Shown: positions 10,764 to 60,636 of the stretch, in pieces | Layout: every line of letters starts with the position of its first letter | Numbering within the stretch: the stretch's first letter is position 1 | Source: an uncultured Dehalococcoidia bacterium | GTDB taxonomy: Bacteria > Chloroflexota > Dehalococcoidia > Lucifugimonadales > UBA3495 | Reading direction: 5' to 3' | NCBI GenBank assembly: GCA_951812625.1 | Contig: CATOSP010000001.1 | Location: forward strand, 473,378 to 537,377 | Length of the DNA stretch: 64,000 bases | Made by a program: the position numbers and the translations under genes | The notes under the pieces: generated by a model | Told to the model about the DNA's origin: nothing | What the model saw: only the letters and a program-made list of their open reading frames with translations | Database searches by the model: none

Positions 10764-12781
10764 TCAAGGGAGTCTATCGCAGTTTCGACAAGCATTTGAT
10801 GGTACTCCCGGTAGTTCTGGCGAGAAACAGGGAGATAGATGTCGGGTTGCGCAGGGTTTCCCTCCAGGACTGCACCGTTGGGGCGTATCGTGTGCCCGAT
10901 ACTCCACATGAAGCGGATCACGGGTTGAGATGTGCCGGGGAAATGGAGCACTTCCAGTCCCTCCCAAGTGTTGCTGTAACCTCCAGTGGGAACGCCCAAG
11001 AATGTAGCCAAGTCGTTGTCCACAAACATCGCCACGAATTGGTCCAAGTGCGAACCGCCCTGAGTCCTGGCATTGACGATAACTATGTCGCCCCTGAAGT
11101 GGACAGGAGCCGGTCGCAAGATGCCGTCAGAATCCTTGGGCAGGTGAGCAAGTTTGAAGGGGACCGGTGCTGTAAACTCGTTGCCTCGGTCGATTGCTTT
11201 CTCACCGTCTGTGCGCGCCCAATCGTATAACCAACTACGGCTTAAATTAAGGCCGAATATTTCGGGTGCATTGCTGTCCGGAGTTCTGTTGCTATAGCGG
11301 TTGACTAGCTCCTGGCCAAGGTCACTCAGCCGGACATTGCCGAATGTAGACCGGAACGGTCGGTCAACCAGCCTTTGTATCGCGTAGGCACCGCCTGAGC
11401 CTCCACCGGTCCAAGTAACGTCAATGACTATGTCGTAGTCAAGGAGTCCCTCCTCCTCAGCATATTCCATCATGGCGGGGATGTCATGGATCAGGTCGTC
11501 ACGCTCGAAATCCAGCCATTCCAACAAAACTAGCTTCCGGCTGTTATCAACCAAGACGTTGAAGTTCACCCGCTCCATCACCCGTACGAATCCCGGGTAA
11601 GGGTCAGCTAGACGCAATATCTGGGAGAAACTGCGGCAGTCGTCACCGTAAGGAAGCGAAACGTCGTACCGCTCGCCGGACGACCGCTCCAAGGTGAGGT
11701 AAAGGCGCTCGGAATAGAGGTTCAAAGGAAAACTGTGAAGCCGCCTAGGTAAATGACGTGCGATCTCCCAATAGAGGCCGGGCAAAGTTGAATGACGTAT
11801 GAAAGGGACGAATTCTTCGATGTGCTCTTTCATGGACCGGCCGTTGACGCCCAGGATGACGTCGCCAACTTGGGGCGACGTAACCCCTCCTTCAACAGAG
11901 GCAATAAAGAAAGTGGGATTTCGAATGTCCAGTATTTCCGGAAGCACCCGAATAGGCGCGGAGACGCATGGTCGCCGTTCTGGAGGCTTCAGGCCACCGT
12001 CAACGGGGATTACCGCCAGATGAGTGTCCCTCCGGGCGTTGCTGAGTTTCACCAGCGCAAACCAGAGGTCAAGTTCCGTTTCGGCGGCAAGGAACTCCTG
12101 CCGGAGTGCCCTCATGTCCCCAATGGCGGAGAAACGTATGTTTTTCTCCTTGATTTCCGAGAAAGCTTCCCGCCGCTCGGTCTTGGTAATGATCTCGTCA
12201 AACAGTGTCTCCAGGTTGACTTCGCCTAATGGTTTCGACTCCGGCAAGGGAAGAGGTGAAGGAGGGGTCGGCGTAGGCGCGGCAGTTGGGACCGGCGTGG
12301 GGGTCGGCGTAGGCGCGGCAGTTGGGACCGGTGTGGGGGTCGGCGTAGGCGCGGCGGTTGGGACCGGCGTGGGGGTCGGCGTAGGCGCGGCGGTTGGGAC
12401 CGGTGTGGGGGTCGGCGTAGGCGCGGCGGTTGGGACCGGTGTGGGGGTCGGCGTAGGCGCGGCGGTTGGGACCGGCGTGGGGGTCGGCGTAGGCGCGGCG
12501 GTTGGGACCGGCGTGGGGGTCGGCGTAGGCGCGGCGGTTGGGACCGGCGTGGGGGTCGGTGTAGGCGCGGCAGTTGGGACGATTGACGAGGTGGTAGCAA
12601 GATTCCGAGGGTCAGTCGGCGATGGGTCGCCGCCCAACGATACTGGTGCAGCCGTCGCGGTGGGCCTTTGTCGTGCCGTCCGGTCTGTTTCCTCACTGCA
12701 ACCCGCGACTACCATGGGAAGGACTGTCAGCATTAGGAACACACACCAGAATCTGCTCTTCTTCACAATGCTGCGATTCAT
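10757..12781 (-). CDS. PT-stalk lipoprotein with S41 peptidase-like domain
   Basis: 674 residues. Signal peptide with lipobox VVAGC (Cys about 28), then a Pro/Thr-rich stalk with nine PTAAPTPTPTPV-type repeats (about 68-175), then a globular part. A PDZ-like stretch is VEGGVTSPQVGDVILGVNGR; the C-terminal half has the S41 (C-terminal processing peptidase) look with IVIVNARTQGGSHLDQFVAM, where the Ser of GGSH would be the nucleophile, and ATFLGVPTGGYSNTW. The stalk would hold the enzyme away from the membrane or wall. The stop overlaps the DUF4258-like frame. The assignment to S41 is moderate. Confidence 0.72.
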   Translation of the reverse strand: MNRSIVKKSRFWCVFLMLTVLPMVVAGCSEETDRTARQRPTATAAPVSLGGDPSPTDPRNLATTSSIVPTAAPTPTPTPVPTAAPTPTPTPVPTAAPTPTPTPVPTAAPTPTPTPVPTAAPTPTPTPVPTAAPTPTPTPVPTAAPTPTPTPVPTAAPTPTPTPVPTAAPTPTPPSPLPLPESKPLGEVNLETLFDEIITKTERREAFSEIKEKNIRFSAIGDMRALRQEFLAAETELDLWFALVKLSNARRDTHLAVIPVDGGLKPPERRPCVSAPIRVLPEILDIRNPTFFIASVEGGVTSPQVGDVILGVNGRSMKEHIEEFVPFIRHSTLPGLYWEIARHLPRRLHSFPLNLYSERLYLTLERSSGERYDVSLPYGDDCRSFSQILRLADPYPGFVRVMERVNFNVLVDNSRKLVLLEWLDFERDDLIHDIPAMMEYAEEEGLLDYDIVIDVTWTGGGSGGAYAIQRLVDRPFRSTFGNVRLSDLGQELVNRYSNRTPDSNAPEIFGLNLSRSWLYDWARTDGEKAIDRGNEFTAPVPFKLAHLPKDSDGILRPAPVHFRGDIVIVNARTQGGSHLDQFVAMFVDNDLATFLGVPTGGYSNTWEGLEVLHFPGTSQPVIRFMWSIGHTIRPNGAVLEGNPAQPDIYLPVSRQNYREYHQMLVETAIDSLDS
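12267..12580. repeat. 36-bp tandem repeat, nine copies, encoding the PT stalk
   Basis: Units of 36 bp (gcggttgggaccggcgtggg core, seen from the plus strand) repeat about nine times with few differences, mainly c/t and a/g variation. They encode PTAAPTPTPTPV on the minus strand. The near identity suggests recent slippage or recombination. The plus-strand GVGVGVGAAVGT reading frame is only its mirror. Confidence 0.9.
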
Positions 12782-20453: not shown

Positions 20454-20471
20454 CGGCAGGGCGATGCGCTT

Positions 20472-48461: not shown

Positions 48462-48833
48462 ATGCAGAGTATCGAGTCCCTGCCTGAGAAACACACCCGT
48501 CTGGCTTATCAGATGCTTGATGATGCCAGGGCCGAGATAGCGAATGGGGATACGGTCCAGGGCGGTGAAAAGCTGTGGGGCGCGGCCAGCCATGCCATCA
48601 AGGCATACTGCGCCAGCCTGGGGACGCCCCACAGCAGGTACGCCCAGCGCAGGCAGGCCCTCCGGGAACTCGCCGACCGCCTCGGCAACCCTTCCCTGCG
48701 GGAACACTTCGGCATAGCCCTGAGTTGCCACGCCAACTTCTACAACGACTGGCTGGAACAGGAAGACCTGGCCGAGTACGTGGGTTATATCGAGGAACTG
48801 GTCAACATCGTCCTCGGCCAAAGAGCCGAATAG
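48462..48833 (+). CDS. PaREP1/HEPN-like helical protein
   Basis: 123 residues, GGGGAG 5 nt before the ATG. HTRLAYQMLDDARAEIANGD, GGEKLWGAASHAIKAYCASL, then CHANFYNDWLEQEDLAEYVG. Third intact family member in the window. Its last 153 bp are repeated almost exactly at 49425-49577, beyond the DinJ-YafQ pair. Possible RNA-binding or toxin role by fold; inference. Confidence 0.78.
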   Translation: MQSIESLPEKHTRLAYQMLDDARAEIANGDTVQGGEKLWGAASHAIKAYCASLGTPHSRYAQRRQALRELADRLGNPSLREHFGIALSCHANFYNDWLEQEDLAEYVGYIEELVNIVLGQRAE

Positions 48834-48853
48834 CCTGCTCAGGAGACCGGTAT

Positions 48854-49117
48854 ATGGGCACCACCGTTTTCACCGCTGACGTCGATTCGGACACGCTGGC
48901 CCAAGCCAGGGAAGTGCTGGCCAAGGAAGGCATCACTCTGTCCGACGCCCTCCGGCAGATGTTGGACTATATCGTGGTTGAAGGGCGGATGCCCCACTTC
49001 CAATGCTTTGAGCCCAATGAGGAGACCCTTGCGGCAATGGCGGAAGCTGAAAGAGTCAACCTGGTCTCCATCGGTGGCGTGGATGACTTGATGGCCGAAC
49101 TTAATGAGGACGATTAG
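48854..49117 (+). CDS. dinJ: RelB/DinJ-family antitoxin
   Basis: 87 residues from ATG 48854 with GGAGA upstream; the track ORF starts too early inside the HEPN gene. TVFTADVDSDTLAQAREVLA KEGITLSDALRQMLDYIV is the ribbon-helix-helix N-terminus of RelB/DinJ antitoxins, and the acidic C-terminal half would wrap the toxin. It overlaps the toxin gene by 14 nt. Expected to repress its own operon. Confidence 0.85.
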   Translation: MGTTVFTADVDSDTLAQAREVLAKEGITLSDALRQMLDYIVVEGRMPHFQCFEPNEETLAAMAEAERVNLVSIGGVDDLMAELNEDD

Positions 49118-49385
49118 GCGGACCAACGTCTTCAAGCGCGACTACAGGCGGGAAAAACGCGGGCAGTATAGGCAAACCCTTGATGCGGAACTTCAACGAG
49201 TCCTAGAGCTATTGATCGTTGATGCAACTATGCCGGAGCGGTACCATGACCACCCCATGCGCGGCAACCGGGTGAGAGAGCGCAATTGTCACATAAGGCC
49301 GGACCTGATTCTCCTCTACCGCAAGCCGGACACCGAACACCTGGACCTGATACGTCTTGGTTCGCACAGCGAACTCGGAATCTGA
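49104..49385 (+). CDS. yafQ: YafQ-family mRNA interferase toxin
   Basis: 93 residues: NVFKRDYRREKRGQYRQTLD, MPERYHDHPMRGNRVRERNC HIRPDLILLYRKP and a terminal LIRLGSHSELG. The YxDHxLxG, CHIxPDLILxY and GSHSEL motifs are those of YafQ, a RelE-fold ribosome-dependent RNase, with the late His likely catalytic. Overlaps the antitoxin gene by 14 nt. The module sits between two copies of the HEPN gene 3' end. Confidence 0.9.
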   Translation: MRTIRRTNVFKRDYRREKRGQYRQTLDAELQRVLELLIVDATMPERYHDHPMRGNRVRERNCHIRPDLILLYRKPDTEHLDLIRLGSHSELGI

Positions 49386-49424
49386 TATCGGAGCAATCAG
49401 GCAGGTTAGGTTTCCCGATTACGG

Positions 49425-49577
49425 CTCGGCAACCCTTCCCTGCGGGAACACTTCGGCATAGCCCTGAGTTGCCACTCCAACTTCTACAACGACTGGCTGG
49501 AACAGGAAGACCTGGCCGAGTACGTGGGTTGTATCGAGGAACTGGTCAACATCGTTCTCGGCCAAAAGGCTGAGTAA
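49425..49577 (+). pseudogene. Duplicated 3' end of the PaREP1/HEPN-like gene
   Basis: A 153-bp segment, in frame and of identical length to 48681-48833, ending in its own stop (TAA instead of TAG). By eye it has about eight mismatches. It encodes LGNPSLREHFGIALSCHSNF YNDWLEQEDLAEYVG. No start codon precedes it. It lies 39 nt after the toxin gene, so DinJ-YafQ is bracketed by direct repeats. Confidence 0.92.
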
Positions 49578-49625
49578 CCCACTGTGCTAACATGAGCCAG
49601 TCAGGAGAATAGAGGGGAGACTGCC

Positions 49626-51808: not shown

Positions 51809-51895
51809 ACTGGAATTGGAGTTGTGACGGGCAAGACCGCCCGCACCTTCCATGACATTGAGGGGACGCACCCCGGCAAGGGTGCGTCCTTTTTT
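51809..51895 (+). ncRNA. Candidate short transcript ending in a strong terminator (small RNA or attenuated leader)
   Basis: From the candidate promoter a transcript of about 87 nt would end at the hairpin GGACGCACCC/GGGTGCGTCC followed by six T (51864-51895). A smaller GGGC/GCCC hairpin lies before it. The next gene on this strand starts at 51953, past the terminator, so this is either a free small RNA or a leader whose terminator must be read through to express the head genes. Confidence 0.45.
51864..51895 (+). terminator. Intrinsic terminator upstream of the prohead protease gene
   Basis: Perfect 10-bp stem GGACGCACCC - cggcaa - GGGTGCGTCC followed by TTTTTT. The ORF track runs the protease frame through it, which supports the later TTG start at 51953. 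Confidence 0.9.
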
Positions 51896-51952
51896 AATTG
51901 GGGCCTTCCCCGGTATGAAACGGACTGCCCGGCGCATTACAGGAGGTGGCGA

Positions 51953-52699
51953 TTGAATACACCCGTGAACACACCCGGCAACATGACTTGGCAGCGGGAG
52001 CGGCTGCTGGAAGCCCTGGACGCCTATACACGCGGCCTGGTCGACGCGCCCCTGCTGCGGAAGCGCACCGAGTCCCAGGCTCCCGGCGCAGGACCGGACC
52101 AGGCCTCCGGCCCGGTCCTCGATACCGTGGAGCGGATGACCTTTGCCATCTCCACCGAGGATGTGGACCGGCACGGCGACGTGCTCACCGCCAGCGGATG
52201 GAGGCTGGAGTCGTACCTGCAAAACCCCGTGTTCCTGTGGGCCCACGACTACGCCCGCCCCGTCATCGGGCGCGCCGCCCATGTCTGGAAGGGGGCGCGG
52301 GAACTGCTGGCGGAAATGGACTGGGCCCCCACCGAGTTCGCGCAGGAGGTGGCCATGCTCTACCGCTCCGGCTACCAGCGGGGCGTGTCCGTGGGGTTCA
52401 AGCCGGTCCGCTACGAGGAGCGGCGCGATGCCAGGACCGGTGCGTTCCTGGGCATCCGGTTCCTGGAGCAGGAGCTTCTGGAGGTCAGCGCAGTTCCCGT
52501 CCCGGCCAACGCCAGCGCCCTGCGCCGCGCCCTGGACGAAGCGCAACTCGCCGCGCCAAGGGTCGCGGAGTACCTGCGGAGCAGCGGAGTTACCGACTGG
52601 CCGGGTCCCACTGGGACTGAAGCGGCCGGGGCACCCTTGCCCGAACTGGCCCGGATCGTGGCCGCCATCCGGGAGGCACACCCCGGCGCAACTCACTGA
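51953..52699 (+). CDS. HK97-type prohead protease
   Basis: 248 residues from TTG 51953, fixed by AGGAGGT at 51941-51947. MTFAISTEDVDRHGDVLTAS GW, LQNPVFLWAHDYARPVIGRA, SGYQRGVSVGFKPVRYEE and LLEVSAVPVPANASAL match the peptidase U35/S78 family; His of WAHD and Ser of GVSVGF would be catalytic. It trims the scaffold part of the capsid protein. A pair with the capsid gene downstream. No portal or terminase gene lies upstream, as would be normal. Confidence 0.9.
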   Translation: MNTPVNTPGNMTWQRERLLEALDAYTRGLVDAPLLRKRTESQAPGAGPDQASGPVLDTVERMTFAISTEDVDRHGDVLTASGWRLESYLQNPVFLWAHDYARPVIGRAAHVWKGARELLAEMDWAPTEFAQEVAMLYRSGYQRGVSVGFKPVRYEERRDARTGAFLGIRFLEQELLEVSAVPVPANASALRRALDEAQLAAPRVAEYLRSSGVTDWPGPTGTEAAGAPLPELARIVAAIREAHPGATH

Positions 52700-52738
52700 C
52701 CACTGACTACCGGCAACCACGAAGATAAGGAGAACGAC

Positions 52739-54070
52739 ATGACCATCACCACCCAGGATATGGAGACCATCAAGCGGGAAATCGGCTCGATCCGGGAATA
52801 CTACCAGTCGCACATGGACGCCGAGATTCCTCCCCTCAAGGAAGAGGTGGCGCGTATTTCGTCCCAGCTTTCCCAGGCGCAGGACTCTTGGCGGGCCGGG
52901 GAAAAGCGGGCCATCCTGTCCAAGTTCGCCGGGGCAGACCGGCCCCGCGCCCTTCACGGCAAGTACGCCGGGCTGGACATGCTAGACCTGGCCTGCGTCC
53001 GCAGCCTGCTCGCCGCGCAGTTCCGCGATCCATCGGGGGTGAACCCCCGGATGCTGGAGGAGTGGCAGACCAACGTCAAGGCGGCGATGGACTCCACCAC
53101 CGCCGGGACCGGCGACGAGCTGGTGGACACCCAGGAGGCCCGCGCCCTGTGGGACGACGTGAACCTGGAGACCGCCGTCGCACCCCTGTTCAACACCATC
53201 CAGATGCCCAGCAACCCATTCCAGATACCCCTGCAGATGGGTGATGTGAACTGGTACCCGGGAACCGAAAACTCCGCAGTCACCAGCACCGCCCTATCCA
53301 CGGCGCGGCAGACCCTCACGGCCCACGAGTTGGTGGCCGAGGTGCCCTGGTCCTACGACCTGGACGAGGATGCGGTCATCGCCATGATGGAGGAACTGCG
53401 CCGGGGACTCCTGCGGAACGCGCGGGAGGTAATCGACGACGTGCTCCTGAACGCCGACACCACCACGACCAACAACATCAATGCCGACGGCGCGGCCATC
53501 ACCGCCAGCACTGCGGGCAAGGGCCACTGGCTGCTGGGGTTCGACGGCCTGCTCCACCTGCCCCTGGTGGACAACACCGGCCAGGCCAGCAACCACAACG
53601 GCGCGGTCTCCGAGGCCATGTTCAACGGCGTACGCGGGCAGCTGGGCAAGTACGGGGTGCGCCCCTCGGAGCTGGCCTACATCTGCGATGTGAACACCTT
53701 CATCAAGTCCCTGACCGTGGACAGCTTCCGCACCCTGGACAAGTTCGGCCCCCAGGCCACGGTGCTCACCGGCCAGCTTGGCGCGGTTGAGGGGATCCCG
53801 GTGATCGTGTCGGAGCTGATGAAGCTGGCCGACGCCGACGGCAAGGTAACCGGCGCGGGCAACACCACCAACACCGGCAGGCTCCTCATCGTCAACCGGA
53901 CCCAGTGGCGCGTGGGGTTCAAGCGGGAGTTGAACATCGAGACGGTGCGGGACGCCCAGAAGCGGCAGAACATCATGGTGGTGAGCTTCCGCATCGGTCT
54001 CCAGGAGGGCAGCGGTACCCGTTCCACCGCCACTCACACCGCCCTCAAGTACAACATTACCGGCGTCTAG
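52739..54070 (+). CDS. Phage major capsid protein, HK97 fold
   Basis: 443 residues, AAGGAGAA before the ATG. N-terminal coiled-coil scaffold or delta domain (about 1-90; MDAEIPPLKEEVARISSQLS QAQ), then the capsid fold: AMDSTTAGTGDELVDTQEAR, AVAPLFNTIQMPSNPFQIPL and a C-terminal RTQWRVGFKRELNIETVRDA QKR. Matches the phage_cap_HK97 family. Would self-assemble after cleavage by the protease upstream. No frame damage, so the product is probably made or recently was. Confidence 0.92.
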   Translation: MTITTQDMETIKREIGSIREYYQSHMDAEIPPLKEEVARISSQLSQAQDSWRAGEKRAILSKFAGADRPRALHGKYAGLDMLDLACVRSLLAAQFRDPSGVNPRMLEEWQTNVKAAMDSTTAGTGDELVDTQEARALWDDVNLETAVAPLFNTIQMPSNPFQIPLQMGDVNWYPGTENSAVTSTALSTARQTLTAHELVAEVPWSYDLDEDAVIAMMEELRRGLLRNAREVIDDVLLNADTTTTNNINADGAAITASTAGKGHWLLGFDGLLHLPLVDNTGQASNHNGAVSEAMFNGVRGQLGKYGVRPSELAYICDVNTFIKSLTVDSFRTLDKFGPQATVLTGQLGAVEGIPVIVSELMKLADADGKVTGAGNTTNTGRLLIVNRTQWRVGFKRELNIETVRDAQKRQNIMVVSFRIGLQEGSGTRSTATHTALKYNITGV

Positions 54071-54169
54071 GGGCACAGAAATACCCATCAACTCGACCCT
54101 GGCACTCCGGCCAGACAGGTAGCAACCAACCACCCGGATACCCGGGAAATTTCGAAAAGGAGAGCAAAC

Positions 54170-54661
54170 ATGACAACCATCAGCCAGTCTGATCCGACCT
54201 CTGAGGCGGTGAAAAAGATGGTGCCGCCTCCGCAACCGGGAGTTTCCTACGTGATGCGCCGGTGCATCGTAACCGAGTTGGCCCCGGCCAAGTCCGGGGA
54301 AAGCGCCTTCGTCGTCCAGAACCCGGAGCTGGTCGACTGCATCATCACCAACGTGACGGTGGACATCACCACCGCTGCGGACGCGGCCAAGGCGGCGCTG
54401 GACATAGACGTGGTCAGCGCCCCCGACTCCAGGGGGAACGGCATTATCGACGGTCTCTCCCTGGCCACAACGGGCACCTTCGACCGCTGTGCCGTCGCTG
54501 CCGGGAAAGCCGGGGGCAACCCCGTGAGCCACCCGGTGAGCAATCCCGTGAGATGGGACCGGCGGGACGGGGAAAACGACTTCATCACCGGCACGGTCAT
54601 GTCGGCCAACGCGCTCAACCTCGCCGGGCTGGTGGTCATCGAGTTCATTCCCCTGGGCTAG
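54170..54661 (+). CDS. Hypothetical phage structural protein
   Basis: 163 residues, AAAGGAGAG before the ATG. CIVTELAPAKSGESAFVVQN, ITNVTVDITTAADAAKAALD and VMSANALNLAGLVVIEFIPL suggest a beta-rich protein with a tail-like repeat of valines. In this position, directly after the capsid gene, phages often encode a head decoration protein; that is inference from position and size. Confidence 0.6.
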   Translation: MTTISQSDPTSEAVKKMVPPPQPGVSYVMRRCIVTELAPAKSGESAFVVQNPELVDCIITNVTVDITTAADAAKAALDIDVVSAPDSRGNGIIDGLSLATTGTFDRCAVAAGKAGGNPVSHPVSNPVRWDRRDGENDFITGTVMSANALNLAGLVVIEFIPLG

Positions 54662-54670
54662 AAGGCGAAT

Positions 54671-54693
54671 AGCCCCCTTGGGCAAAGGGGGCT
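54671..54693. repeat. Perfect AGCCCCCTT/AAGGGGGCT hairpin
   Basis: 9-bp stem with loop gggca just after the 54170 gene, followed by ggggggatttt. It may act as a weak terminator. Same type as at 13221 and 44330. Confidence 0.5.
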
Positions 54694-54749
54694 GGGGGGA
54701 TTTTCGAGCATGGCCACCGCCTGATCAGAACGGAAGCAGGAGGCACACC

Positions 54750-54959
54750 ATTATCACCAGGCTCAAGGAACTGGCCGCCGTGACCCGCCGGGACAGGACT
54801 CCCGGCGCGGGGACGGTGGTGCCCATCGTGGGTATCCTGGCCATCGCCGCGGTGGAGGGATATGCCCTGAACCAGGGCATCAACGGTACGGCGTTGACCG
54901 CTGCGCTCACCGCCATCGCGGCCCTGGGCGGCGCGGGCATCGGGAGGCTGCTGAAATGA
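54750..54959 (+). CDS. Small membrane protein of the phage module, apparent ATT start
   Basis: 69 residues: ITRLKELAAVTRRDRTPGAG, then VVPIVGILAIAAVEGYALNQ, GTALTAALTAIAALGGAGIG RLLK. AGGAGG at 54738-54743 lies 6 nt before an ATT, with no ATG, GTG or TTG in frame nearby; the ORF-track start is upstream of this ribosome site. Two hydrophobic segments; size would suit a holin, but other roles are possible. Overlaps the next gene (ATGA). Confidence 0.55.
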   Translation: MITRLKELAAVTRRDRTPGAGTVVPIVGILAIAAVEGYALNQGINGTALTAALTAIAALGGAGIGRLLK

Positions 54960-55369
54960 CCAGCGTCCGGTCGCGGCGGGCACACGCCCGCCGCCGTCCC
55001 TACGACGTGCTGTTCAACGCCCACGACACCAGCACGTCCACCCTCCGGGAGACCATCGCCCGGCCCGCCAGGGGGAAGCGCATCCGGGTATTGCGGGTGC
55101 GGGCGGTGCAGGAGACCTCCGAGGGCCGCTTCCTCTACGAAGTCTACTTCGGCGGGGGAGCGAACATCGACGCCGACCCGGAGAAGGCCGTGGATACCCT
55201 GGATATCCCGGAAGCGGGAGAGGCGTCCACCCGTACTTTCCCACGGGACGAAGGCCCCCGGGGGCTGCGGGACGAGGTCCTGAGCGGACGGTGGGCGGCA
55301 CAGCCGGGCTCCAACGCCGTGCCCACCGGCGTCCACAAGATCATCGTCGAGTACACGGAGGAAAGCTGA
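54956..55369 (+). CDS. Hypothetical phage module protein, tandem paralogue 1
   Basis: 137 residues; start overlaps the previous stop. TIARPARGKRIRVLRVRAVQ, GRFLYEVYFGGGANI, TRTFPRDEGPRGLRDEVLSG RW and HKIIVEYTEES. Clearly homologous to the next gene, so a tandem duplication. Beta-rich; function unknown. Such proteins between capsid and connector could be decoration or minor head proteins. Confidence 0.6.
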   Translation: MTSVRSRRAHARRRPYDVLFNAHDTSTSTLRETIARPARGKRIRVLRVRAVQETSEGRFLYEVYFGGGANIDADPEKAVDTLDIPEAGEASTRTFPRDEGPRGLRDEVLSGRWAAQPGSNAVPTGVHKIIVEYTEES

Positions 55370-55433
55370 TGACATCGTGGGACGGATCCCAAACGACATC
55401 CCTTGGCTGGCACAACAGTATAGGGGGCATTCT

Positions 55434-55808
55434 ATGACCGTCCGCAGGCGCCCCTACGTGCTGAAGGTGCGGGAGGTCAACTCCGCCGCCAACACCCGGC
55501 GTCAGACGCTGCTCACGCCGACCAAGGGCTACCGCATCCGGCTGGTGCGCGTCCGGGTGTTGCAGCCGGAGCGGGAGGGACGCCGCCTGTGGGAGCTCTA
55601 CTTCGGCAGCGCTCCGAACATCGTCACCGATCTGAAAAAGGGCATCGACATCCTGGCCGTGCCCAATGGCGGGTCGGACTCCACCCGCACCTATCCGAGG
55701 AACGAGGGGCCGCGCGGCCTGCGGGACGAACCTCTGAGCGGACGCTGGCGCGGCGTCGCCCCCTCGATCCCGCACCGCATCATCATTGAATACAGCGAGG
55801 AACCGTAG
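55434..55808 (+). CDS. Hypothetical phage module protein, tandem paralogue 2
   Basis: 124 residues from ATG 55434 (AGGGGG upstream; the track uses GTG 55377). TLLTPTKGYRIRLVRVRVLQ, RRLWELYFGSAPNI, TRTYPRNEGPRGLRDEPLSG RW, HRIIIEYSEEP parallel paralogue 1 segment by segment. Stop is 2 nt before the connector gene. Confidence 0.6.
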   Translation: MTVRRRPYVLKVREVNSAANTRRQTLLTPTKGYRIRLVRVRVLQPEREGRRLWELYFGSAPNIVTDLKKGIDILAVPNGGSDSTRTYPRNEGPRGLRDEPLSGRWRGVAPSIPHRIIIEYSEEP

Positions 55809-55810
55809 CC

Positions 55811-56635
55811 ATGGGCCGAGAGGCATACCGCTCCCTGTACGGGGACTTGACCAAACTGAAGGACGATACCCTGCTGAAGGACCCGGCGGCGGGCACGGCG
55901 GACGACGACGAGCTTTTCCAGTTGCTTCTGGCCATGTCGGACTGGACGGACCACCACTGCAACCGCCACTTCTACCCCCTGACCCGCACCATCCGTCTGG
56001 ACGGCTCGGGGTCGTCGCGGCTGATGCTGCCGGACCTGGTGTCGCTGGACCACGTTAAGGAGGACACGGCGGGGGACGGCAGCTTCGGGGAGACCTGGGC
56101 CGCCACCGACTACCTGCTGGAACCCTACAACGCCGCGCCGGAGCAGCACTGGGGATTGCCCCACACGGCGGTGCGGGCGCGCAGCGGCGGGACAAAAAGC
56201 GGGTTCAGCGCCGGGGAGCAGCGGTTCGAGCTTTCCGGGGTCTGGGGGTACCGGCAGTTCAGGGAGCACAGCGGAGCGGCGCTGAACGGCGCGGTGGGGT
56301 CTTCGGACATCCGGACGCTGACCGTCACCGCCGGGGCGCAGTTTCACGTTGGGCAGACGGTCATGGTGGGCCGGGAGCAGATGCTTGTCACCGCCATCAC
56401 CGACGATGTGCTGTCGGTGTCCCGTGGTCTGAACGGCACCGCGAGGGCGTCCCACGCCGACAGGGCGGTGGTGTACATCCTGCGCTGGCCCGCGTCGGTG
56501 GAGCGGGCGACGCTGATCCAGGCGGCCCGCATCTGGACCCGCGCCGCCGACTTCGAGCCCTTCTACGTAGACTCGGAGCTGGATACGGACGTGCGCCTGC
56601 TCCTGGAGCCCTACCGCAAGCTCGCCGGGGGTTAG
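55811..56635 (+). CDS. Phage gp6-like head-tail connector protein
   Basis: 274 residues. MSDWTDHHCNRHFYPLTRTI, LDGSGSSRLMLPDLVSLDHV, a beta insertion (FELSGVWGYRQFREHSGAAL, LTVTAGAQFHVGQTVMVGRE) and C-terminal helices ERATLIQAARIWTRAADFEP. This layout fits gp6-like connector proteins that join portal and tail. The last 115 bp are repeated at 57518-57632. No later tail genes follow, so the module stops here. Confidence 0.78.
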   Translation: MGREAYRSLYGDLTKLKDDTLLKDPAAGTADDDELFQLLLAMSDWTDHHCNRHFYPLTRTIRLDGSGSSRLMLPDLVSLDHVKEDTAGDGSFGETWAATDYLLEPYNAAPEQHWGLPHTAVRARSGGTKSGFSAGEQRFELSGVWGYRQFREHSGAALNGAVGSSDIRTLTVTAGAQFHVGQTVMVGREQMLVTAITDDVLSVSRGLNGTARASHADRAVVYILRWPASVERATLIQAARIWTRAADFEPFYVDSELDTDVRLLLEPYRKLAGG

Positions 56636-56679
56636 GGGGCGGGGGGAGAGGCTACTCGGGGGGCCGGTGCCGGAGATTA

Positions 56680-57390
56680 TCAGGTTCCCTGGCGGCGCTC
56701 CAGTTCTGCCTCGAGTTCGCGTATTCGGGCCTCGGCGGCCTGGGCGCGGGCCTCGGCTGCGACCCGGGCGTCATACTCTTCATCGAAGGTCAGTAAGTAA
56801 CTCCCGGTTGCCGGGTCCCACCACCTCAGACTCCCGTTTTCCCAGCACAGGTCCAGGTTTAGAACGTCGCTGTGTCCGTGGAAGTGGTCCGGGCCCATCC
56901 CCAGTATCTCGACGGGTTGGTACGTCCCCTCAACCAGCCGGTCGCCGCCCAGGGGTGCGCCGTGGTAGCGGCCACCCGATGGGTCAAACCGCCAGTATTC
57001 GGGGATACCGAAGGCGGCGTAGTCGATTCGCTTCCCAGTGTAATCTTCCAGTCCCGTGGTCGGAGAGGCTACTTCCAGCACGAAATCCGGAGGCTTGCCC
57101 TGGTCCCGGATCGAGTATCCGTTCTGATCGACCGCCAGCGGGAAGTCCGCATTGAAGGCGATGAGCAGGTCCGGGATACGGTGGCCTTCCCGCTGCCCAG
57201 GGGACCTTCGCACCGGGATTTCGCTTAGGACGATAATGGCGTCACCAACTCCGAAGTGGCGGCGAAGGGCTGCCTGGTGGGCTGGTGTGTCCAGGTGTAG
57301 GGAGTTCTGCATATCGTCCCTGGGCGGGAAGACGGGAAACTTCTCGAGTCTACCGGCGTCCGTGGTCTGCCGGGTCAGCTTGCTGGTCAT
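56680..57390 (-). CDS. Uma2-family (DUF820) putative endonuclease inside a direct repeat
   Basis: 236 residues from ATG 57390 (GAGG 7 nt upstream; TATAAT on the minus strand about 35 nt further). PDLLIAFNADFPLAVDQNGY, KPPDFVLEVASPTTGLEDYT, KRIDYAAFGIPEYWRFDPSG, plus a C-terminal coiled coil. Very similar in leader and N-terminus to the gene at 20512, so probably a recent relative. Lies opposite to the phage genes and between two copies of the connector gene 3' end. Confidence 0.87.
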   Translation of the reverse strand: MTSKLTRQTTDAGRLEKFPVFPPRDDMQNSLHLDTPAHQAALRRHFGVGDAIIVLSEIPVRRSPGQREGHRIPDLLIAFNADFPLAVDQNGYSIRDQGKPPDFVLEVASPTTGLEDYTGKRIDYAAFGIPEYWRFDPSGGRYHGAPLGGDRLVEGTYQPVEILGMGPDHFHGHSDVLNLDLCWENGSLRWWDPATGSYLLTFDEEYDARVAAEARAQAAEARIRELEAELERRQGT

Positions 57391-57517
57391 GGTGGTCCTC
57401 ATGTGCCGGCTGGGGCGGGAAGCGCTGTTGCCATTATAGGGCACCGGCGCGCCGTGATGAGCGTTCAGGAACGGGTTGCCAGACGGATGAGGCGGTGGGC
57501 CTGATGTGGCTTCGGGA

Positions 57518-57632
57518 GGCGGCCCGCATCTGTACCCGCGCCGCCGACTTCGAGCCCTTCTACGTAGACTCGGAGCTTGACACGGACGTGCGCCACCTGC
57601 TGGAACCCTACCGCAAGCTCGCCGGGGGTTAG
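57518..57632 (+). pseudogene. Duplicated 3' end of the connector gene
   Basis: 115 bp matching 56521-56635 with about seven mismatches and ending at the same stop. The match resumes at GAGAGGCTACTCGGGGGG (56646-56663 and 57657-57674) after a small length difference. Encodes TRAADFEPFYVDSELDTDV. No proper start. The segment between (about 56664-57517) is the Uma2 cargo. Confidence 0.92.
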
Positions 57633-57712
57633 GGGGAACTAGTGGCGAGGATAGAGGAGAGGCTACTCGGGGGGTGGCGCGTGTGGTAACGGTGCACTCC
57701 CACGGAAGGAGC

Positions 57713-58660
57713 CTATTCCTCAGTATATAAATCGCCCAGCAGTTGAAGCCAACTGTCCCTCCACATATCTTCGGTGTAGACCTTCAATTTTCTCTCCTCA
57801 TCGAATATCGGCTCAGTTAACCTAATGTACTGTTCTGAATCTCTTTTAATCCATTCTCTATAACTGCCATCGTCGTATGCTGTCTCGGGCAGCGGTGTCC
57901 ACCTGCGTGCCTTAAGCCATCGGTTTAACTCCTCCTCGTCAGAAAAAAACACTCTGTACGCCGTCTTAGTCAGGTCCTGGAATCGATGGAACACCGGATG
58001 GTTGGCAAGCAACACTTGTTGAATGGCATCGTCCTTATCCTTGCGCTCTTCGGTAAGAAACCGCACTAGTTGTTCGAGTGTTCCAGCTACTGACTTCATT
58101 TCCCCCAGAGCATTAATCTCCTGGAGGCGCTTTTGATCTTGGAGAAACCTTTGAAATAGACCTGCCCACTGACTTCTGAGGAATTCAACAATGTCGTACG
58201 CGGTTTGAAAGGAGGTAATGGGATTGTTTCTCGGGAGACTGTAGATCGACTCAATGAAGTTATAGATGCGAGGGTCATCCACAAATTGATATTTGATACC
58301 TGCAGTATCTTTGTTTATCGAGTAAGTACGGTATTCGGAATGCACGCTTTGTTCTATGAATATAAAGACTTGGACTTGGTTTTCTAAAGCAGTCTTCAGC
58401 TCCAACTGAGTTATAGAGGCTCCGGGCTGTTCTTGTGACTCGGTGCCATAGCGGCCTCCAATCACGCAGACAAGGATGTCACACATTTCTATTTCGCGAT
58501 GAACATACCCCTCTGGAGGGCTATCCTTGCCGTATGCGATGTCCCCCTCCTCGTGGAGGACAGCTTCGTAGCCCAACTCCGTAATAAACCTGTCGAGGTC
58601 TTCTCGGACTTGCCTCAAGTCATAAAATGTAGAGCTTACGAACACTCGTGGCTTGGCCAT
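57713..58660 (-). CDS. DUF4062 protein (TIR-like N-terminus)
   Basis: 315 residues, GGAGG 5 nt before ATG 58660. KPRVFVSSTFYDLRQVREDL DRFI, EMCDILVCVIGGRYGT and ASITQLELKTALENQVQVFI are the DUF4062 pattern, a STIR/TIR-like Rossmann fold found in signalling and defence proteins. The C-terminal half is helical without a known domain, so no effector such as an NTPase is attached. AT-richer than the flanks, suggesting acquisition. Direct evidence for a defence role is lacking. Confidence 0.85.
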   Translation of the reverse strand: MAKPRVFVSSTFYDLRQVREDLDRFITELGYEAVLHEEGDIAYGKDSPPEGYVHREIEMCDILVCVIGGRYGTESQEQPGASITQLELKTALENQVQVFIFIEQSVHSEYRTYSINKDTAGIKYQFVDDPRIYNFIESIYSLPRNNPITSFQTAYDIVEFLRSQWAGLFQRFLQDQKRLQEINALGEMKSVAGTLEQLVRFLTEERKDKDDAIQQVLLANHPVFHRFQDLTKTAYRVFFSDEEELNRWLKARRWTPLPETAYDDGSYREWIKRDSEQYIRLTEPIFDEERKLKVYTEDMWRDSWLQLLGDLYTEE

Positions 58661-58897
58661 TTCCGCCTCCAGACCAGCGCTTGTAGCGGATCACCACTAC
58701 TTTCGCCCCAATTAGCTGGAAAATCCGATATACGGAGATGATAGCACAATGCTCAGGCCCTACAATGTATACGGGGAGGGGAACAAACTTCCCCTGCGGA
58801 GCCTAATGGGTGATACTGGGCGTCTCCCGCCACTCCAGCCCTGTGCTAATATGAGACAAATGCCTGCCCTGAACCTACCCTGCCGGTGCAACGCTCC

Positions 58898-59455
58898 ATG
58901 ACTACGAAACCGAAACTGGTCACCGCCGAGGAGTTGCTGCGGATGCCCCGGGGGTACGGTCTTCGTTGCGAGCTTATCCGTGGGTCGGTAGTTTGGAGAA
59001 TGTGCTCGGAAGCCCCCCAGGCCGAAGCCATGACCAGGACTATGTTTGTGCTGGCCAGCTACGTATACGACCATAATTATGGCGATCTTAGCGCGGGGGA
59101 CCCGGGTTACCATCTGGAACACGATCCGGACACAGTGCGGGCGACTGACATCGCATGGTTCGCACCGGGACGCTTGACGGAGCGGGTTCAGGGTTACCCG
59201 GAGCTTGCTCCTGACCTTGCCGTGGAGGTGAAGTCTCCGAGCAATTCCGACCCGGAGATGGCGGACAAGGCTACGATGTGGCTCAGCTACGGGTCGCAGC
59301 AGGTGTGGGTGGAAGACCCGGAACGGGCCACCGTTACCGTGTTCCGTCCCAACATGGCCCCGGTCACCCTGGGTGAGGATGACGTGCTGGACGGCGGCGA
59401 TTTGCTCCCCGGTTTCAGCGCGCCCGTGTGGAGCCTGTTCCGGCGGCGCAGGTAG
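58898..59455 (+). CDS. Uma2-family (DUF820) putative endonuclease, short form
   Basis: 185 residues from ATG 58898. VTAEELLRMPRGYGLRCELI RGSVV, DTVRATDIAWFAPGR, LAPDLAVEVKSPSNSDPEMA. This compact form keeps a full PD-(D/E)XK-type set (Asp in DIAWF, Asp in PDLAVEVKS, Glu and Lys in EVKS), unlike the three long copies, where EVKS is EVAS or EIAS. TGTGCTAATAT at about 58842 may be the -10. Role unknown. Confidence 0.88.
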   Translation: MTTKPKLVTAEELLRMPRGYGLRCELIRGSVVWRMCSEAPQAEAMTRTMFVLASYVYDHNYGDLSAGDPGYHLEHDPDTVRATDIAWFAPGRLTERVQGYPELAPDLAVEVKSPSNSDPEMADKATMWLSYGSQQVWVEDPERATVTVFRPNMAPVTLGEDDVLDGGDLLPGFSAPVWSLFRRRR

Positions 59456-59651
59456 CATCTGGGGTTGGCTCCCTGACCCCTTCCCCTTGGTTTCCCTTCC
59501 TCATTTCCTGATCTCTCCACTGTTCCCGCTTTGTGTTCTCTGGGCGGAATCCATGCCCGTTGGAGATGGTCGCATCCGCTCTCCTGGGAGGCCGGGGATT
59601 CCCGCTACACCGGGAACGGCGGATACTGCCAATGACCCGCTGCCCCTGTTA

Positions 59652-59719
59652 GTGACAACACTTTTCCGTCACGGATATACTGGCGAAAAGCTGGCTGTGA
59701 GCTTTCTGTTCGGCTCACA
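59652..59719 (+). promoter_or_regulatory. Promoter with a downstream operator for the SMP-30 gene
   Basis: GTGACA (59652-59657), 18-nt spacer, TATACT (59676-59681), then an inverted repeat TGTGAGC-N10-GCTCACA (59696-59719), roughly +8 to +31 of the transcript. The ATG at 59746 has GGGAGG before it. This is a classic layout for repression by a dimeric regulator; the regulator is not in view. The rest of the gap 59456-59745 shows nothing. Confidence 0.6.
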
Positions 59720-59745
59720 TCATTCCGCTACGGGAGGGTTGTCCT

Positions 59746-60636
59746 ATGAGTTGGAACTTTGAGCTGGTGGCCGGGCCTCTGGGCGGGACCACCGAGGGTC
59801 CCGTCTGGGACGGGGAGGCGGTGCTTTACACCCATATCCCCGCCAGCCGGATCATGCGCTACAACCCGCGCACCGGCGAGAATTCCGAGTACTTCTACAT
59901 GACCCACAATACCAACGGGCTGTGCTTCGATGCCGAGGGCAACCTGTATGGCTGCCAGAGCGGGCGGCGGCGCATTGTGCGGTTCGAGAGGAACGGCATT
60001 ACCATCACCCCCGTCAGCTCGACCCTTGGCTCGCAGCGACACAACAACCCCAACGACCTGGCGGTGGACAGGCAGGGGCGAATCTGGTTCACTGACCCTT
60101 TCAACGGATCGGCGGGGGACCAGGAGCTTGACCACATGTCCGTGCTCCGGCTGGACCCGAAAGGGGACGACGACTGGGAGTTGACGCGGGCGACCTACGA
60201 CGTGAGCCGTCCCAACGGTGTCCTGATTTCCCGCGACCAGAGGACCCTGTACGTTGCCCAGAGCGACTATGATCCGTCGCAGCCCCGGGAGCTTCGCGCC
60301 TATCCGATAAACGACGACGGGTCGCTGGGCAGCTACGCCACGCTGCACACCTTCGGCATCGACCCCAGGGGCGTGCACCGGGGCGTTGACGGCATGACCC
60401 TGGACGTGGAGGGGAATATCATCGCCTGCGCCGGCTGGGAGGAGAGCGGCCCCGGCCCGATGATCTACGTGATCTCTCCGGCAGGGCGGGTGCTGGAGAC
60501 CCACCCGATCCGGGTGGACCGTCCCACCAACTGCTGCTTCGGGGACGCGGATATGCGGACGCTGTACGTGACCACTGGGGGCGGGCACCTGTTCCGCGCC
60601 CGCACGGACCACACCGGGTGGATAATGTGGCCGTGA
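59746..60636 (+). CDS. SMP-30/gluconolactonase-type beta-propeller hydrolase
   Basis: 296 residues. TTEGPVWDGEAVLYTHIPAS (Glu ligand), HNTNGLCFDAEGNLYGCQSG, HNNPNDLAVDRQGRIWFTDP (Asn-Asp metal ligands), VSRPNGVLISRDQRTLYVAQ (second metal Asn) and IYVISPAGRVLETHPIRVD. These are the calcium-site residues of SMP-30/gluconolactonase enzymes that open sugar lactones. Preceded by a clear promoter-operator. Likely inducible sugar-acid metabolism; exact lactone unknown. Confidence 0.92.
   Translation: MSWNFELVAGPLGGTTEGPVWDGEAVLYTHIPASRIMRYNPRTGENSEYFYMTHNTNGLCFDAEGNLYGCQSGRRRIVRFERNGITITPVSSTLGSQRHNNPNDLAVDRQGRIWFTDPFNGSAGDQELDHMSVLRLDPKGDDDWELTRATYDVSRPNGVLISRDQRTLYVAQSDYDPSQPRELRAYPINDDGSLGSYATLHTFGIDPRGVHRGVDGMTLDVEGNIIACAGWEESGPGPMIYVISPAGRVLETHPIRVDRPTNCCFGDADMRTLYVTTGGGHLFRARTDHTGWIMWP

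Follow-up and report, generated by a model that had tools for sequence, protein, structure and literature searches.

The window, by which we mean the whole 64,000-nucleotide stretch of DNA analysed here, contains a phage head-tail connector gene whose 3′ end is present twice, on either side of a single Uma2 gene. The features of this locus are listed below in window coordinates.

51824–55808, forward strand: rest of the phage head module, with an S78 protease (PF04586), an HK97-type major capsid protein (PF05065) and four small genes, kept with the connector in relatives
55811–56635, forward strand: intact gene for the phage head-tail connector (274 aa), whose 3′ end is duplicated (phrog_442 head-tail adaptor, E=8.3e-11; 60–66% aa identity to relatives)
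56520–56663, forward strand: repeat copy T, found by repeat search, with the connector 3′ end, its stop and an 18-mer at 56646–56663
56664–57516, no strand: inserted segment (cargo) between both repeat copies, 853 bp, 63.9% GC
56680–57402, reverse strand: Uma2 gene, the cargo gene, with a likely ATG at 57402 and a frame open to a GTG at 57444 (PF05685, E=2.8e-16)
57433–57438, reverse strand: TATAAT, −10-like box of the Uma2 gene, a perfect match read in the sequence, with no good −35 by eye
57517–57674, forward strand: repeat copy T′, found by repeat search, with the 5′-truncated connector 3′ end, a stop at 57632 and the 18-mer at 57657–57674

Anatomy of the connector-Uma2 locus

A repeat search of positions 55000–60000 returned one direct-repeat family, in which 56520–56639 and 57517–57636 align over 120 nt at 94% identity, with 7 mismatches and a spacing of 997, a likeness that is not chance. 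Both copies of the connector end pass through the same TAG stop, at 56635 and 57632, and after a 14-nt length difference match again over the 18-mer GAGAGGCTACTCGGGGGG on the 3′ side of the stop. Because the exact 16-nt core of this 18-mer occurs at these two places only in the 4.03-Mb assembly searched, we count it in the repeated unit, which comprises the last ~116 nt of the connector gene, the stop and the 18-mer and measures 144 nt in T and 158 nt in T′, with the indel between. A repeated connector end with about seven mismatches, a common stop and a later rematch had been reported in the preliminary description and is recovered here, but its positions, 56521–56635 and 57518–57632, were off by one, the starts being 56520 and 57517.

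T′ starts within the connector gene and has two amino-acid replacements, W to C and L to H, which, falling at mostly conserved positions, make it look non-functional; the seven differences between the copies amount to four synonymous and two nonsynonymous codons. Homology is confined to one side of the insert, where the cargo adjoins a gene end homologous to the target, while the ends joined at the opposite junction share none. Directly 3′ of T′, the DUF4062 gene region (57675–58740) has 48% GC within a 62% GC window, and is probably a separate acquisition given that difference.

The Uma2 assignment lies above the curated Pfam cut-off (59.9 bits versus 27 for PF05685), and the product is predicted to be a small nuclease-like protein, whose closest paralogs within its own genome are found on contig C3 at 71–72% aa identity. 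The Pfam match, the antisense frame and the TATAAT at 57438–57433 bear out the earlier picture of a lone Uma2 gene lying between the repeats in the opposite orientation with its own −10 box.

The phage head and packaging genes are split between two contigs, with the protease, major capsid protein and connector at 51824–56635 of the window and TerL and portal at C3:38094-42334 (L116); each set is present in roughly half of the related genomes, with about one copy per genome at most. The major capsid protein shares ~80% aa identity with the relatives compared, several of which have the connector beside the same ABC operon, and two small paralogous genes, arranged in tandem between those for capsid and connector (54956–55369 and 55377–55808), are likewise conserved as a pair in relatives. 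The head and packaging set looks vertically kept and is perhaps gene-transfer-agent-like, and the single in-frame stop in several of the relatives' portal genes (L196, L197, L198, L195, L207 and L212) hints at its decay in some lineages. Elsewhere in the window, 12264–12580 consists of 36-bp units repeated in tandem, about eight or nine in number and 95–97% alike.

The connector locus in related genomes

A whole-genome search found a connector match in 29 of 59 related genomes, none of which (0 of 29) carries a second 3′ fragment behind the gene, and the fragment was equally absent from 17 IMG/VR contigs, of which only seven span at least 1 kb downstream. Insertion-free connectors, which the preliminary description had proposed to seek in relatives, are thus present, and the independent phage gene copy to which it had allowed that the second fragment might belong was found in neither the 29 relatives nor the 17 contigs. 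Because the insert-free connectors are only 60–66% aa identical to the window connector, the empty-site junction is not alignable. The donor form, that is, a connector followed by this Uma2 gene but not by T′, did not appear among the relatives and IMG/VR contigs examined, a set that includes no same-genus genome.

Downstream of the connector, G005, G013, G023, G026 and G031 carry a peptide ABC transporter operon, and an SMP-30 gene follows further downstream in G005, as it does in the window. In G013, the slot behind the connector is occupied by a gene that is Uma2-like by eye, which has no match to the window Uma2 at 1e-4 and no repeat around it. Detached connector 3′-end fragments were seen in two relatives. 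In G006, only a decayed 3′ remnant is left, flanked by HesB- and GGT-like genes and, on its other side, by the ABC operon; it looks like what is left of a decayed module, and we rejected it as a bracket. In G029, the end of one contig cuts the connector short, and another contig has the 3′ end behind unrelated upstream DNA (L044:12425-12625 and L045:8617-8835), the two overlapping exactly over ~70 bp, which may represent the same kind of scar or strain variation. In G039, a ~523-bp unit made of the capsid-gene 3′ end and the connector 5′ end occurs three times in tandem (L056:7600-9060).

Recurrence around unrelated genes

A scan of 2.1 Mb, made up of stretches of three contigs of this genome, G000 (C1, 464 kb; C3, 420 kb; C2, 400 kb), and of 400 kb from each of the relatives G013 and G033, gave ten cases of one intact and one truncated gene end, two in the window and eight elsewhere. 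All ten were selected by eye among the scan results, gene names without a Pfam call are readings of translations, and the counts describe three genomes within one Chloroflexota family, so that enrichment in the lineage is not inferable from them. The second case in the window is a 158-nt direct repeat (48678–48835 and 49422–49579, 94%) at a PaREP1 gene, with a toxin-antitoxin pair as cargo.

48462–48833, forward strand: intact PaREP1 gene (PF05942, E=3.4e-15)
48678–48835, forward strand: repeat copy T, the PaREP1 3′ end, 158 nt, 94%
48854–49117, forward strand: cargo, RelB-type antitoxin (PF04221, E=4.2e-10)
49104–49385, forward strand: cargo, YafQ-type toxin (PF15738, E=2.6e-23)
49422–49579, forward strand: repeat copy T′, the truncated PaREP1 3′ end with its own TAA stop, from the repeat alignment

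The truncated PaREP1 copy has TAA where the intact gene has TAG and LGQKAE where the latter has LGQRAE, and in these details reads like another allele and not like decaying DNA. The eight cases outside the window are as follows.

Enoyl-CoA hydratase gene end duplicated; cargo Spond_N-like
RraA-like gene end duplicated, 120 bp, 100% identical; cargo a Schlafen/AlbA_2 gene
MFS transporter gene end duplicated; cargo a 321-aa protein with no Pfam match
gpsA gene end duplicated
Acetyl-CoA synthetase gene end duplicated
ClpB gene end duplicated
FAD oxidase gene end duplicated; cargo a toxin-antitoxin pair
Thiolase 5′ end duplicated, a mirrored case; cargo including a methyltransferase

Besides these ten, an RDD gene lies between ~81-bp repeats in the TerL-portal gap of this genome; in 15 relatives, TerL and portal are at most about 550 bp apart, too close for the RDD gene, which provides an empty site at the level of genes. 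An empty site for the AlbA_2 case was sought through the downstream gene, which the RraA-like gene does not precede in relatives.

The scar is thus not specific to Uma2, as genes of other kinds bear it both in this genome and in relatives. It had been suggested that other Uma2 genes of the window, given as 20512, 29306 and 58898, might also have duplicated neighbour ends; the repeat scan found no bracketing repeats around those at 20464, 29306 and 58886, and within the stretches of this genome that were scanned, only one Uma2 gene out of 14 lies between such repeats. The earlier view of a Uma2 insertion bracketed by a duplicated gene end therefore holds for the anatomy, but its link to Uma2 is not supported, and we rejected Uma2-specific mobility in view of the 13 unbracketed genes, including the three others in the window.

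A direct repeat at the 3′ end of a gene resembles an attL/attR pair, and a mobile element, either integrating site-specifically at such ends or in the form of a Uma2-carrying transposon, might be invoked for this resemblance. However, the 853-bp insert encodes neither integrase nor transposase, the region searched has no terminal inverted repeats, the repeat sequence differs from case to case with no common att core, and GAGAGGCTACTCGGGGGG is unique to the connector locus, on which ground it was also rejected as a recombination site. Together with the 13 of 14 Uma2 genes that stand without repeats, these features make a mobile element extremely improbable.

An assembly artefact, in which two metagenome strains are falsely joined between the cargo and the second gene end, would yield the same arrangement; the genomes used all appear metagenome-assembled or incomplete, and a strain chimera would be expected to hold copies that diverge as alleles do. 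Yet the same scars are present in the single-contig genomes G013 and G033, the joined ends have no common sequence through which an assembler could overlap them, and Helicobacter genomes are known to show the pattern (PMC1643837), so we consider an artefact very unlikely.

Origin of the second copy

The connector-Uma2 data alone do not separate two origins of T′, namely a donor allele and a duplicate of the target. In strict insertion with long target duplication, a staggered break and its repair would copy ~100–250 bp of the target, and both copies would derive from the recipient and be identical at birth. The shape of the scar is the same, variable duplications of ~100 bp are reported at restriction-modification genes (PMC3874152, PMC1643837), the RraA-like case has two identical copies, and nothing at the connector locus by itself contradicts such an event; the seven differences there are no more than suggestive of a donor allele.

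The pooled cases point the other way. Across the ten, differences between copies fall 18/15/55 at codon positions 1/2/3, and the changed codons comprise 51 synonymous and 31 nonsynonymous ones, a synonymous share of 62% against 27.5% expected under neutrality and 39–43% expected if the truncated copy drifts beside a constrained intact gene (p 4e-4 to 1e-5). None of the truncated copies has a premature stop, which taken alone is not significant (0.09–0.16). In addition, of 25 pairs chosen by rule (isolated repeats of length 70–300, with an identity of 85% or more and a gap of 400 or more), 14 have a repeat edge no further than 10 bp from an ORF end, versus 15% expected by random placement (p=3e-6), a count inflated by the shared ends of some paralogous gene pairs in the set. 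Third-position bias and edges at gene ends both fit a donor allele homologous to the recipient only as far as the gene end, and both speak against a strict target duplication, as does the lack of any Ku match in this genome, which makes classical end joining unlikely and led us to reject Ku-dependent end joining. As the source of the duplicate, the pooled sequences favour a homologous donor allele over a fresh duplication of the target site, and strict target duplication appears unlikely.

Tandem duplication of a gene end together with its cargo, the second cargo then being lost, would leave a similar structure, and tandem duplication does occur in these genomes, as the three ~523-bp units of G039 attest. 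No trace of a second Uma2 gene follows T′, however, and in G013 the repeat is 94% identical whereas the adjoining toxin-antitoxin pairs are 58–68% identical; the HicA/HicB array in G033 shows a like contrast, its repeat being far more alike than the flanking modules. Simple tandem duplication of the unit would not produce these contrasts, and we regard this origin as very unlikely indeed.

A probable recombination scar and its known counterparts

Taking the donor-allele reading further, we propose that the connector-Uma2 arrangement is probably a recombination scar formed through a single block of homology with a donor fragment from a related strain; most likely, it reflects one-sided recombination with such DNA and not a self-moving Uma2 gene. 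The donor fragment would have joined a connector 3′ end to the Uma2 gene and would have entered the chromosome through that one block. Entry would have required either a single crossover, once the fragment had been closed into a circle by end joining, or homologous exchange at one of its ends combined with illegitimate joining at the other. The product would be an intact gene, the cargo, a 5′-truncated second gene end and the old downstream DNA, and we infer that the connector locus follows the pooled pattern. Positions of the differences along T, which bear on one-end illegitimate joining versus a single crossover, showed no clear trend (mean relative position 0.52). The ComEC and DprA families are present, which proves nothing since both are near-universal.

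The shape of the scar is already known as insertion with long target duplication, a term of Kobayashi's group that PMC3874152, PMC1643837 and PMC3154945 apply to restriction-modification genes of Helicobacter pylori (Nobusato et al. 2000; Furuta et al. 2010, as cited there) and that denotes direct repeats of the target of at least ~100 bp; the repeats at the connector-Uma2 insert measure 144 and 158 nt. As in the H. pylori cases, the cargo is enclosed by target-derived direct repeats, ~100 bp and variable in length, with no transposase. Unlike in those cases, most of the cargo here is of kinds other than restriction-modification, and the copies resemble diverged alleles with edges matching gene ends.

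The proposed route resembles homology-facilitated illegitimate recombination and the single crossover of end-joined linear DNA, for which one homologous block suffices (PMC3240628 and papers cited there); in E. coli conjugation experiments, single crossovers gave partial duplications of the homologous locus of 109–950 bp (PMC3240628). Those systems come from laboratory crosses, whereas ours is read from genome anatomy alone. Homology-facilitated illegitimate recombination has also been proposed for Vibrio effector-immunity arrays (PMC5361080), and in the type VI effector-immunity displacement of Vibrio cholerae an upstream homologous anchor is proposed to import a new module while the old one is pushed downstream, with which the two toxin-antitoxin pairs of G013 may be compared; the anchor there is part of the module, whereas here it would be any neighbouring gene.

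More broadly, we raise as a long shot that gene ends could be routine homology anchors in this Chloroflexota family, capturing toxin-antitoxin, Uma2 and Schlafen-like cargo from related strains and leaving scars, with delivery perhaps by the dispersed phage head genes conserved in about half of the genomes. The recombination reading itself gives long target duplications a testable explanation, in which the second copy may be an allele from a donor instead of a duplicate of the target site. If that holds, scars would record single gene-transfer events that one genome scan can find, and toxin-antitoxin and nuclease genes would settle beside housekeeping genes with no recombinase of their own.
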